From Deltaproteobacteria bacterium (lineage in GTDB: Bacteria > Lernaellota > Lernaellaia > JACKCT01): a stretch of 64,000 bases of DNA. How positions within the stretch are numbered: the stretch's first letter is position 1; every line of letters begins with the position of its first letter. Location: assembly GCA_020845895.1 (NCBI GenBank), contig JADLEX010000053.1, forward strand, positions 1-64,000, in the 5' to 3' direction. This document shows, piece by piece, positions 59,254-64,000 of the stretch. A program made the translations under genes and the position numbers. The notes under the pieces were generated by a model, which was not told the origin of the DNA, ran no database searches, and was given only the letters and a program-made list of their open reading frames with translations.

Positions 59254-60789
59254 TCAGTTTCCCGCTGAACCCAACGGGCCCGCCGCCGCCAGCATGCGAT
59301 TCACGAGCACCTCGAAAAGTCCGCATCCCGACGCGGCGAAAACACGGCCGGAGCCCGTCTCGAAATGGATCGATCGCGCGAGCCGGCCGAGTTTCACGCT
59401 CGCACGCGTCTCGTGATCGTCGAGCCCGATCAGGTCGAGGCGACCGTCGGTGTAGCCCGCCGTGATGATGAGGCGGCGATTCAGATCCAGGTAAAGTTCC
59501 CGCACGGTCGTGCCCGTCGGGATGGTCTTTTCGAGTTCCAGCGTCTCTCCATTGAGCACGGCGATCTCGCGCGTCAGCGTTCCCGCCGCGTAAACGCGGT
59601 CCGTCACCGGGTCGTAATCGAGCCCGATCGTCGGAATCTTGATATTGCGTTCTATGAGCGGAGCGAGAAACTCCTCGGAGAGCATCAGAAATTCGCCGGA
59701 GATGGACGACGCATAGTAGACTTTCCTTTCTGGTTGGTGAACGAAAGTGTCGATCAGGCTCATGAAGAGGGCGCGGGAGACCTTGCGGTAGAGCGTCTGT
59801 TTGAAGGTGTCGCGATCGTAGACGCCCACCGCGCCCTCGTAGTTCAGGATCAGCAGGCGATTTCGCGCCTCATCGAGATAGACGCGAATCGGCTCATATC
59901 CTGGGCGGATCTCGGCGAGTTGCGTGAACCCGTTGCGGTATTCGATCACGCGCACCGTATGGTCACCGTCTACGTCGAGAACGACGACGTAGATGCGCCC
60001 GCGCCCGGGATCGACCGTAATTCGCTGCGGATAGGTTCCGGTACTTTCCGAGGAGATGGGAATCAGAGCCGCCGACGAGAAATCGGGGGACGAGAACGAC
60101 GTGGCTCCGATGGCGTCGTTCGGCACCGCAGGTTTCCATGGCATCTTCAGAAAGCCGGATCGCCGCTGCTTGAGCGTGAAGAACAGTCGATCCGCCGCGG
60201 GGTCGGATTTCACGTCGTAGGGAAAAGCGTCTTCGACCTCGGAGCGGTCGACGATCTGCGCTCTCGTGATGATAGGTCGCAGAAATGGACTCGCCTCGAC
60301 CTGCTCGCAGGTCGTGTCGGTGGACCCGTAGGCGTTGACGCCCATGGCTCCGATGCCCGCGAGCGCCGGGATAAGTATGAGAAGCGGAAGATCGGGTTTG
60401 ATTTCGGCGGGCATTCGTTTTCTCAAGACCAGCGACGCGAGAACCCAAACGCCGAGAACCATCGCGAGCCACTGCGAAAATTCGGGGTACAGGCCGTAGC
60501 CCACGGGCGCGTAGCCCAAGCCGGGAAGCGCAAGGATGGTGATCGTGCCCAGAACGCAACGACGATGCAGACGCGCGATCGTGGCTTCCCGCGCCACACG
60601 CCAGGTGCGGTACTTTTTGACCCGTTGGGTGGCGATGCGATCGCCGACCCCGATTCCGGCGAATCCCAGCGCCAAGGAAGACAGCACGGAATAAAACGCC
60701 AACCGGCGTTCAAGAAATGTCAGATTGAGATAAAATGCGATGGGAATCAGCAATACGCAGTAAAACAGGGTCCGCCGGAGCGTGAGCAT
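59254..60789 (-). CDS. Membrane protein with a YVTN-type beta-propeller domain
   Basis: The product is 511 residues. About five transmembrane helices occupy the first ~160 residues (RRTLFYCVLLIPIAFYLNL first). The remaining ~350 residues form repeated blades of the YVTN/NHL kind (PQRITVDPGRGRIYVVVLD, VYLDEARNRLLILNYEG, LDYDPVTDRVYAAGTL), likely a periplasmic propeller. No enzyme motif is seen. I chose ATG 60789; the frame is also open to TTG 60825. It heads the run propeller-GT2-arcC on the reverse strand, divergent from the tiny peptide gene. Confidence 0.78.
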   Translation of the reverse strand: MLTLRRTLFYCVLLIPIAFYLNLTFLERRLAFYSVLSSLALGFAGIGVGDRIATQRVKKYRTWRVAREATIARLHRRCVLGTITILALPGLGYAPVGYGLYPEFSQWLAMVLGVWVLASLVLRKRMPAEIKPDLPLLILIPALAGIGAMGVNAYGSTDTTCEQVEASPFLRPIITRAQIVDRSEVEDAFPYDVKSDPAADRLFFTLKQRRSGFLKMPWKPAVPNDAIGATSFSSPDFSSAALIPISSESTGTYPQRITVDPGRGRIYVVVLDVDGDHTVRVIEYRNGFTQLAEIRPGYEPIRVYLDEARNRLLILNYEGAVGVYDRDTFKQTLYRKVSRALFMSLIDTFVHQPERKVYYASSISGEFLMLSEEFLAPLIERNIKIPTIGLDYDPVTDRVYAAGTLTREIAVLNGETLELEKTIPTGTTVRELYLDLNRRLIITAGYTDGRLDLIGLDDHETRASVKLGRLARSIHFETGSGRVFAASGCGLFEVLVNRMLAAAGPLGSAGN

Positions 60790-60885: not shown

Positions 60886-60915
60886 TTGACACCCGACGCG
60901 GCGTTCGGGTACTGT
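60886..60915 (+). promoter_or_regulatory. Promoter of the tiny peptide gene
   Basis: A perfect TTGACA (60886-60891) and TACTGT (60910-60915) are separated by 18 bases, with a start expected near 60922, about 40 bases before the peptide ATG. Upstream of it is AT-rich sequence (AAAACTATTTG) in an otherwise GC-rich setting. Confidence 0.5.
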
Positions 60916-60962
60916 TTTCGATGTCACCAAGGGTCCTGACCTTGAACGAGAAGGAGGCTCCA

Positions 60963-61013
60963 ATGAACTGGCGTCCATCTCCGAAGCCCAAGCCGAAGCC
61001 GCCGACGCCCTGA
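60963..61013 (+). CDS. 16-residue Pro/Lys-rich peptide gene
   Basis: A strong ribosome site AAGGAGG, five bases before ATG, precedes the frame MNWRPSPKPKPKPPTP and TGA. Promoter (60886-60915), ribosome site, frame and a hairpin terminator (61047-61081) form a complete small transcription unit. The peptide has seven prolines and four basic residues in the pattern PxPKPKPKPP. The next genes are a methyltransferase and two B12-type radical SAM proteins. It may be a peptide substrate for them (a RiPP precursor), a leader peptide whose poly-proline-like translation controls read-through into them, or a free small peptide. None of these is proven. Confidence 0.6.
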   Translation: MNWRPSPKPKPKPPTP

Positions 61014-61046
61014 AGCGACGACGTTTTCTTCCTTGGTCCGAGGGTG

Positions 61047-61081
61047 AACAGAGGCGGCGATGAGCCGTCTCTGTTGGTTTT
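61047..61081 (+). terminator. Hairpin terminator/attenuator after the tiny peptide gene
   Basis: AACAGAGGCGGC (61047-61058) pairs with GCCGTCTCTGTT (61064-61075), twelve pairs with one G-T wobble and a 5-nt loop, followed by GGTTTTTC. It begins 33 bases after the peptide stop and ends 26 bases before the methyltransferase start, the position of a classic attenuator. Confidence 0.8.
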
Positions 61082-62028: not shown

Positions 62029-63465
62029 ATGGCGCGCGTTCTGCTCATGAATCCCGGTTACGACGTCGACAGCGGATTCGGCGATTACAAGGCCCTCGCC
62101 GAGGCCATGCCCGTCATCGGGCTCGCTTACATCGCCGCGACCTGCCGCGAAGCGGGGCACGAAGTCCGCTGCCTCGACAATTTCGTCGACGGCCTGAATG
62201 AGACGCAGATCGTTGATCTCGTGAGCGAATGGCGCGCGGACGCGGTCGGCATCGGCGTCCTGACGCCATCGGTGCACACGGTCGAATCGCTCGGCCGAAG
62301 ACTGCGGAAGGAACGTCCGCAAACGAAGGTCGTGCTCGGCAATCTGCACGCATCGCTGTTCGCCGAGGACCTCGTACGCGACGGCTACGCGGATTTCGTA
62401 CTGCACAGCGAGGCCGAAACGACGATGCCGAAGCTGTGCGACGTGCTCGACCGGGGCGGCTCGTTCGACGATGTTCCCGGCCTGACGTACATGAACGGCG
62501 GCATCCACACGACACCGATCGCGCCGCTCCTGCAGGGTTCGGAACTCGACGAGTTGCCGCTTCCGGCCTGGGACCTCTTTCCCGAGCACGTTTACGGATT
62601 TCTCGCCTTCGTCAATGTCGCGAAGCCGGGACTGTCGATCATCGGTTCGCGCGGATGCCCGTTTCACTGCACGTACTGCGCGCTCGGATATCAGGGTCAC
62701 AAGGTCCGAAGGCGCAGCCCCGAAAACATCGCGGCCGAGATCGAGTGGCTCGTCAAAGAAAACGGCATCCGTCACGTTGGTTTTGTCGATCCGATTTTTC
62801 CTGTTCACAAGCAGCACGGCATCGACACGTGCCGCGCGATCCGCGAGCGCAACATTCCCGGGGAGTGGTGGTGGACGACCGAAACGCGGGTCGACGTCAT
62901 CGACGAGGAGATGTGCCGCGAAATGGTCGCGGCGAGATGCAAGCGCATTCTGTTCGGCATCGAGTCGGGCGTCGATACGCTACTCAAAAACGTCAACAAG
63001 AAATGCACGGCACAGGACATCCGCGACGGCGTGCGCGTGGCGCGCTCGGCGGGACTCGAAATCTCTGCGTTTTTCATGCTCGGTTTGCCGGGGGAAACGG
63101 CGGAGCAGACCGTCGAGAACATCGAGTTCGCCCGTTCGCTCGACATCGACTTCGCGAAGTTCGGGATCACCATCCCTTACCCCGGCACCAAGATCTGGGA
63201 TGATCTGGTCGCCGAAGGGAAGATGAAGCCCGGCGACTGGGACAAATTCTCGACGTTCAATCACGACCCCAACACGCTGCCGTTCATCCCACGGGGACTG
63301 ACCGGCGACAAGCTCGTCCGCCTGCATCGCCGCGCGACGTTCCGCTTCTACGTGCGGCCCCGCATGATCTGGCGGCACCTGTTCGTAATCCGCTCCATCG
63401 GATTGCGGCAGATGTGGAACGGCGCGAAAATCATGATCAAACACCTGCTGGGGCGAAAGCTCTGA
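62029..63465 (+). CDS. B12-binding-domain radical SAM protein
   Basis: The 478-residue protein has an N-terminal Rossmann-like cobalamin-binding domain (residues 1-~145; VIGLAYIAATCREAGHEVRCLD, GVLTPSVHTVESLGRRL), with no DxHxxG motif. The radical SAM core has C210-x3-C214-x2-C217 (GCPFHCTYC) and an EMCREMVAARCKRILFGIESG block. A helical C-terminus follows. Class B radical SAM enzymes of this form methylate unactivated carbon or phosphorus or rearrange bonds. The ATG at 62029 follows AGGA. Its stop overlaps the next radical SAM gene (TGATG). Confidence 0.9.
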   Translation: MARVLLMNPGYDVDSGFGDYKALAEAMPVIGLAYIAATCREAGHEVRCLDNFVDGLNETQIVDLVSEWRADAVGIGVLTPSVHTVESLGRRLRKERPQTKVVLGNLHASLFAEDLVRDGYADFVLHSEAETTMPKLCDVLDRGGSFDDVPGLTYMNGGIHTTPIAPLLQGSELDELPLPAWDLFPEHVYGFLAFVNVAKPGLSIIGSRGCPFHCTYCALGYQGHKVRRRSPENIAAEIEWLVKENGIRHVGFVDPIFPVHKQHGIDTCRAIRERNIPGEWWWTTETRVDVIDEEMCREMVAARCKRILFGIESGVDTLLKNVNKKCTAQDIRDGVRVARSAGLEISAFFMLGLPGETAEQTVENIEFARSLDIDFAKFGITIPYPGTKIWDDLVAEGKMKPGDWDKFSTFNHDPNTLPFIPRGLTGDKLVRLHRRATFRFYVRPRMIWRHLFVIRSIGLRQMWNGAKIMIKHLLGRKL

Positions 63466-64000
63466 TGCGCGTCCTCTACGTCCGCCCGCCCAAGTACCTG
63501 TGGCCCTACATGAACGAGATGGACAACTTTCTGTTGTCCCAGGCCATGGTCTATCTGGGCGCCGAACTGCGTCGCCGCGGTCACGAGGTCACGCTGCTCG
63601 ACTGCGGCCCGGCGAAGGTCGGCTGGAAGAGCCTCGCCGAGATCATTCGAAAAACGAAACCCCAGGTCGTGCTCGCGGGAGACAGTGAAACGCTCTACGA
63701 ACATGAGTGCGGACGCGTGTTCCGGCTCGCGAAGGAAATCGATCCCTCCATCGCCACGATCGCCGGCGGCGTCCACTTCGCGCAAAATTCCGCGGACTGC
63801 CTGGCGCGCTACCCTATCGACGCCATCGTGCGCGGCGAGGGCGAGATCACGCTCGGCGAAACGGTCGATGCGATCGAGCACGGTCGGGATTTGAAAAACA
63901 TCCCTGGACTCGCGATCCCGGGTGAGCACGGAGAGTGCGTTTACACGGGGCATCGAGATCTGATCGCCGATCTCGATACACTGCCGTTTCCGGCGTACGA
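63465..64000 (+). CDS. Second B12-type radical SAM protein, cut by the window end
   Basis: The frame opens at ATG 63465, sharing one base with the upstream stop, and runs to the window edge, giving 178 residues of an N-terminal B12-binding domain: FLLSQAMVYLGAELRRRGHE, VVLAGDSETLYEHECGRVF, IAGGVHF and IVRGEGEITLGETV. The GGxHxT-like and RGEGE blocks are usual in this family. The radical SAM core with its cysteines must lie beyond the window. It is the third gene of the methyltransferase-radical SAM run. Confidence 0.88.
   Translation, partial: MRVLYVRPPKYLWPYMNEMDNFLLSQAMVYLGAELRRRGHEVTLLDCGPAKVGWKSLAEIIRKTKPQVVLAGDSETLYEHECGRVFRLAKEIDPSIATIAGGVHFAQNSADCLARYPIDAIVRGEGEITLGETVDAIEHGRDLKNIPGLAIPGEHGECVYTGHRDLIADLDTLPFPAY

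Follow-up and report, generated by a model that had tools for sequence, protein, structure and literature searches.

The locus described here raises the question of whether a frame of sixteen codons, placed in front of a methyltransferase gene and two genes for B12-binding radical SAM proteins, is a gene and, if so, what its product does beside such enzymes. It is part of the window, by which we mean the whole analysed stretch of 64,000 nucleotides. The parts listed in the preliminary description (promoter, Shine-Dalgarno (SD) sequence, sixteen-codon frame, TGA stop and hairpin, followed by the methyltransferase (MT) and two B12-dependent radical SAM (B12-rSAM) genes) could all be read directly from the DNA where it had placed them (Table 1). 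The −10 element matches the consensus at three of six positions, and this weakness accounts for the absence of the promoter from the listing of a consensus promoter scan. The terminator-like hairpin consists of 12 pairs and a 5-nt loop followed by GGTTTTT; its folding energy is −21 kcal/mol as compared with a mean of −5.1 for shuffled sequences, none of 40 shuffles being as low. A second, short hairpin (ACCCGACGCGGCGTTCGGGT; 60891–60910) occupies the spacer between −35 and −10 and is possibly an operator. A tRNA was the sole Rfam match in the window.

Table 1. Features of the micro-gene locus and homologous peptide copies.
Feature	Position or location	Strand	Basis or remark
Possible accessory gene: membrane protein with beta-propeller-like C-terminal half, divergent from micro-gene	59254..60789	−	44–46% homologue at second G004 peptide locus
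σ70-like promoter (TTGACA 60886–60891, 18-nt spacer, TACTGT 60910–60915)	60886..60915	+	Direct reading; such a promoter in all eight micro-genes
SD sequence AAGGAGG	60951..60957	+	Direct reading; purine-rich SD before every copy
Micro-gene MNWRPSPKPKPKPPTP, putative precursor/substrate peptide (51 bases; ATG at 60963, sixteen codons, TGA ending at 61013)	60963..61013	+	Eight homologous micro-ORFs, third-position variation
Predicted intrinsic-terminator hairpin between peptide gene and MT	61047..61075	+	Sequence and folding energy
Class I SAM-dependent methyltransferase (MT), about 305 aa	61107..62024	+	Pfam Methyltransf_23/11; 36–40% orthologues
B12-binding radical SAM protein 1 (rSAM1)	62029..63465	+	Pfam B12-binding and Radical_SAM
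B12-binding radical SAM protein 2 (rSAM2)	63465..64000, on to contig position 65012 past the window	+	Pfam
Peptide copy MKWRPSPKPRPNPPSR	G006:C199
Peptide copy MQWRPSPKPRPNPRPRPTDTSE	G002
Peptide copy MNWRPAPKPRPETPKK	G005
Second G006 copy MNWRPSPKPKPKPSN	G006:C238
Second G004 copy MDYRPSPKPKPKPRP, Tyr for Trp at position 3	G004:C3, L068:6290-8564
Peptide copy MDWRPAPKPRPKGK, metagenome-assembled genome (MAG) of another phylum	G041 (L097), JAGUYV010000452

A DNA search with a 211-base region against 40 other genomes returned a single match outside the window's own genome, and this match coincided with the micro-ORF: MHWRPAPKPRPNPPTR, which in G004, a genome from a different family of the window's class, precedes the same MT, rSAM1 and rSAM2 genes. 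Together with the copies that came to light afterwards, it bears out the claim that the micro-gene lies beyond chance. Further copies were obtained by inspection of orthologous loci and by a motif search in seven genomes of the window's class, and MDWRPAPKPRPKGK emerged from a scan for SD plus motif across the genomes of 84,980 species. Three of the 44 hits of that scan are real as judged by ORF, SD and context (G002, G006 and JAGUYV010000452 of G041); the others had no matching short ORF or resembled chance matches. Contamination as the origin of the G041 copy was rejected, the tetranucleotide correlation of its contig with other G041 contigs being 0.947 (next best, 0.785). Also discarded were MSWRPSPRP in G044, G045 and G047, which overlaps the beginning of a spoVG-like gene in antisense, in a differing frame and without SD, as well as MKWRPAPRR (G000:C43) and MNWRPSAKL (G004:C41), which are located inside other genes. 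The motif had no match in viral contigs, and the surroundings of distant rSAM1 homologues (32–40%) yielded no micro-ORF. The search of related genomes that the preliminary description had proposed brought the number of copies to eight, spread over six genomes of uncultured bacteria: five among the seven examined in the window's class, and one from another phylum. Nearly all copies lie beside MT or B12-rSAM genes. Public MAGs among these relatives include JAOSJX010000012 (G002) and PMZC01000052 (G006, isolate fen_1099). FEN-1099 is a placeholder for the phylum proposed as Ca. Lernaellota (PMC13248872), and the window's class is probably Ca. Lernaellota.

All copies share the peptide M-x-[W/Y]-R-P-[S/A]-P-K-P-[K/R]-P followed by a variable tail of 3–11 residues, which results in lengths of 14–22 residues. 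At R4, P5, P7, K8, P9 and P11, codon positions 1 and 2 differ in 0% and the third position in 65% of pairwise comparisons, a sample of eight copies being small and the invariance partly imposed by the pattern with fixed W/R/P/P/K/P that served to retrieve or confirm most of them. The MHWRPAPKPRPNPPTR copy of G004 stems from the unbiased DNA search, and outside the search pattern position 6 is always S or A, position 10 always K or R, and position 11 always P. For codons 2–11 pooled, pS is 0.76 and pN 0.13. The C-termini vary (TP, TR, SR, SE, KK, RP, SN, GK), whereas the N-terminus is conserved; beyond the eleven conserved residues and the short tail, no separate leader or cleavage site was seen in the copies. 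The remark that the peptide has no recogniser region may therefore be wrong, since these nearly invariant first 11 residues could serve as one.

Expression signals accompany the frame. An exact TTGACA lies upstream of seven of the eight copies, with about 0.4 expected in total from shuffled sequences; in the eighth, TTGTCA is paired with TATAAT. Behind the copies in G000, G004:C38, G004:C3 and G041 there are strong terminator-type hairpins, and behind that of G002 a borderline one; the same test gave none behind the G005 copy or either G006 copy. Conservation of the frame had been set against that of the terminator as a check on the peptide gene, and the outcome was the opposite of the one that would speak against it: the frame is kept in every one of the eight copies, whereas about half of them have a convincing terminator.

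An MT or B12-rSAM gene is found within 1 kb of seven of the eight copies. The order peptide-MT-rSAM1-rSAM2 is common to three genomes of different genera (G000, G004:C38 and G006:C199), with identities of about 60% for rSAM1 and rSAM2 and 36–40% for MT; MT orthologues at this level are directly 3′ of the micro-gene in G004, G005 and G006. In G005 the peptide gene is followed by MT, and rSAM1-rSAM2 are elsewhere; in G002, where the assembled cluster contains several frameshifts, the order is MT-peptide-rSAM1-SRPBCC protein-flavoprotein-rSAM1-rSAM2. The second G004 locus combines the peptide with a different MT of 218 residues and a B12-rSAM protein 33% identical to rSAM1, and the G006:C238 copy is placed 109 nt past one B12-rSAM gene, facing a convergent second one (40% to rSAM1). 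The G041 copy is solitary and has a promoter and a terminator of its own. Within the class, rSAM1 orthologues at 60–63% occur only in peptide-bearing genomes: the peptide is present in exactly the five genomes with a close (60%) rSAM1 and was not detected in G001 and G003, which lack one, G001 retaining MT and rSAM2. We regard it as well supported that the micro-gene is real and linked to MT and B12-rSAM genes.

Downstream of the window's cassette, the same contig carries a second methyltransferase gene (65123–66025) and a third B12-rSAM gene, rSAM3 (66022–67488), which recurs at 58% in G000, G004 and G006. All three rSAM proteins carry PF02310 and PF04055, and with an N-terminal B12-binding domain and a radical SAM domain with CxxxCxxC (CPFHCTYC and CTDSCNYC in the translations) they correspond to class B radical SAM proteins. 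Against the NCBIfam equivalogs for B12-rSAM proteins (BchE, HpnJ, ApyD, TsrM and others), the best scores were 166–181 bits with a cut-off of 481; the best matches, BchE and HpnJ, are far below cut-off and not peptide-specific. An AlphaFold model of MT made from the single sequence has a pLDDT of 35. The Pfam domains of the tested peptide neighbours are confined to methyltransferase, B12-binding/radical SAM, SRPBCC, flavoprotein, glycosyltransferase and amino-acid kinase, and no dedicated protease, exporter or RiPP recognition domain was identified. As a separate observation, the G002 cluster holds, between its two rSAM1 copies, a flavoprotein gene with a Trp_halogenase-like N-terminus and the SRPBCC gene (L030:7733-9854, minus strand).

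Whether the divergent propeller gene upstream of the micro-gene (Table 1) belongs to the peptide system is uncertain. Its protein is conserved at 44–46% over the full length in two G004 loci, one of which adjoins the second peptide gene, and its Pfam match to Lactonase stays below cut-off. A third full-length copy has no peptide nearby, and a search around other beta-propeller copies likewise gave no micro-ORF, so that an accessory role is no more than possible. Weaker matches to the C-terminal part of this protein are often near B12-rSAM genes.

Based on the recurrent linkage, we favour, as a reading with somewhat better than even prospects, that the micro-gene is an independent transcription unit for a proline-rich, cationic peptide that serves the linked enzymes as substrate, be it as a short RiPP-like precursor or as a carrier. 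It probably encodes the raw material of an undescribed modified peptide; from the DNA we infer translation, recognition, modification, product and role of the peptide. In the model we propose, the peptide's own promoter and, in about half of the copies, the terminator behind the ORF would give rise to many short peptide mRNAs per read-through mRNA encoding the enzymes. The linked enzymes acting on it would be the class I SAM methyltransferase and two or three B12-dependent radical SAM proteins, which probably recognise the near-invariant N-terminal M-x-W/Y-R-P-S/A-P-K-P-K/R-P. Their probable targets are the invariant residues (Trp/Tyr3, Arg4 or prolines), where C-methylation is one conceivable reaction; a further methyl group would come from the class I enzyme. 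If any residue is modified, Trp3, Arg4 and the prolines are plausible targets, given the methylations known for class B radical SAM enzymes: in bottromycin they take place on Pro, Val and Phe, in polytheonamide on Val, and in the thiostrepton pathway on free Trp (PMC5682303, PMC11285071).

As expected for a RiPP system, a gene-encoded precursor is conserved across genomes (eight micro-ORFs in six of them), and modifying enzymes stand beside it in G000, G004 and G006, partly in G005 and G002, and not in G041. The solitary G041 copy argues against an enzyme-substrate relation, and its main weakness is the occurrence of enzyme homologues without peptide in the second phylum. There, all seven genomes examined possess MT and rSAM1 homologues and six possess rSAM2 homologues, unlinked where seen, and the peptide is detectable in G041 alone. 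G042–G047 have enzyme homologues (37–46%; rSAM2 was not found in G042) but no detectable peptide; hence related enzymes may have other substrates. B12-binding radical SAM genes are very numerous in genomes of the window's class, with 64–92 first-look rSAM1 candidates in G000 and G004 (64 in G000). Adjacency to an rSAM gene alone is weakened as an argument by this abundance.

An unlikely though possible alternative is that the product is a small regulatory protein that remains unmodified and acts in trans, with the methyltransferase, a B12-rSAM protein or the ribosome as conceivable binding partners. It would fit an autonomous gene, able to exist by itself with a promoter and terminator of its own (as in G041), conservation of the whole N-terminal part, and a sequence rich in Pro, Lys and Arg with a composition like that of proline-rich ribosome-binding peptides. 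However, the repeated linkage with MT and B12-rSAM genes is explained most simply by an enzyme-substrate relation.

We consider it distinctly unlikely that a small molecule or cofactor is assembled on the peptide, as a scaffold or carrier, and then released from it, the peptide not being the final product; PqqA and pearlin carrier peptides are invoked as parallels for such a function. The residues are fixed and diversify little, which suggests a single constant product, and rSAM2 homologues adjoin hemL in the phylum of G041; yet hemL is unlinked in the window's class, and the conserved cassette showed neither a peptidase nor an aminoacyl-tRNA-dependent ligase. In L115 and L117–L119 (G041, G044–G046), where the peptide is missing beside them, the rSAM2 homologues have hemL, a membrane glycosyltransferase-like gene or both as neighbours.

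The preliminary description had left the choice between a precursor and a leader peptide. Conserved linkage to MT and B12-rSAM genes speaks for the former, and the latter has become very improbable. A leader acting in cis would have translation of the Pro-rich ORF, with stalling at PP or Pro-stop, control the terminator in front of the MT and rSAM genes. Ribosomes can stall at proline-rich ends, and in the window a strong terminator does separate the ORF from MT. Such attenuation requires every member to have the short ORF in cis and ahead of the regulated genes, but the G002 ORF follows MT, precedes rSAM1 and has its own promoter, the G006:C238 and G041 copies have no enzyme gene downstream within reach, and terminators are not found behind all copies. 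Moreover, the N-terminus is the conserved part and the C-terminus the variable one. A chance ORF beside unrelated lipid or small-molecule B12-rSAM genes, to which the frequency of B12-rSAM and MT genes and the sub-threshold best matches to HpnJ/BchE/ladderane-type families might point, is hardly credible: eight copies are conserved together with their SD and promoter, the synteny recurs, and variation falls on third codon positions.

Very short precursors are already known, from microcin C and the biarylitides; for the peptide described here, no match to a known peptide family was found. Its longest homologue (22 residues) had no match among Pfam and NCBIfam models, and a text search of the literature available for the motif letters gave no paper. 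Like the micro-gene, mccA of microcin C encodes a very short precursor without a leader (7 codons), has a promoter of its own, and is followed immediately by a terminator and then by the genes of the modifying enzymes (PMC6495379). The terminator between mccA and mccB leads to a monocistronic mccA mRNA and a large peptide excess (PMC6495379). By contrast, the peptide described here has 14–22 residues, is proline-rich and is accompanied by a methyltransferase and B12-rSAM proteins, and no MccB-type ThiF-like adenylyltransferase was present among its Pfam-tested neighbours. The biarylitide gene bytA likewise encodes a tiny precursor (five residues, 18 bp) with hardly any leader that is missed by gene callers (PMC13417212); biarylitides, however, are cross-linked by a cytochrome P450 and involve no B12-rSAM protein, and both sequence and gene content of the present locus differ from a five-residue precursor with a P450.

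Bottromycin, polytheonamide and thiostrepton precursors have a long leader or follower. With BotRMT1-3, PoyB/C and TsrM, the linked proteins share the enzyme type, B12-dependent radical SAM enzymes in RiPP pathways (PMC11285071, PMC5682303), but rSAM1 and rSAM2 match the models of RiPP C-methyltransferases far below cut-off. The nearest family models are those of the class B proteins BchE, HpnJ and AprD4, and the nearest solved structure by sequence is that of AprD4 (6fd2); scores are again far below the curated cut-offs, and the substrates of those enzymes are porphyrins, hopanoids or aminoglycosides.

If confirmed, the micro-gene and its neighbours would form a substrate system of very small size for B12-dependent radical SAM enzymes, with the modifying enzymes adjoining and a peptide short enough for chemical synthesis. 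Annotation pipelines do not call such micro-genes, and more of them may therefore be hidden beside orphan B12-rSAM genes of uncultured bacteria. Motif and promoter together would offer a direct route to finding similar peptide systems.
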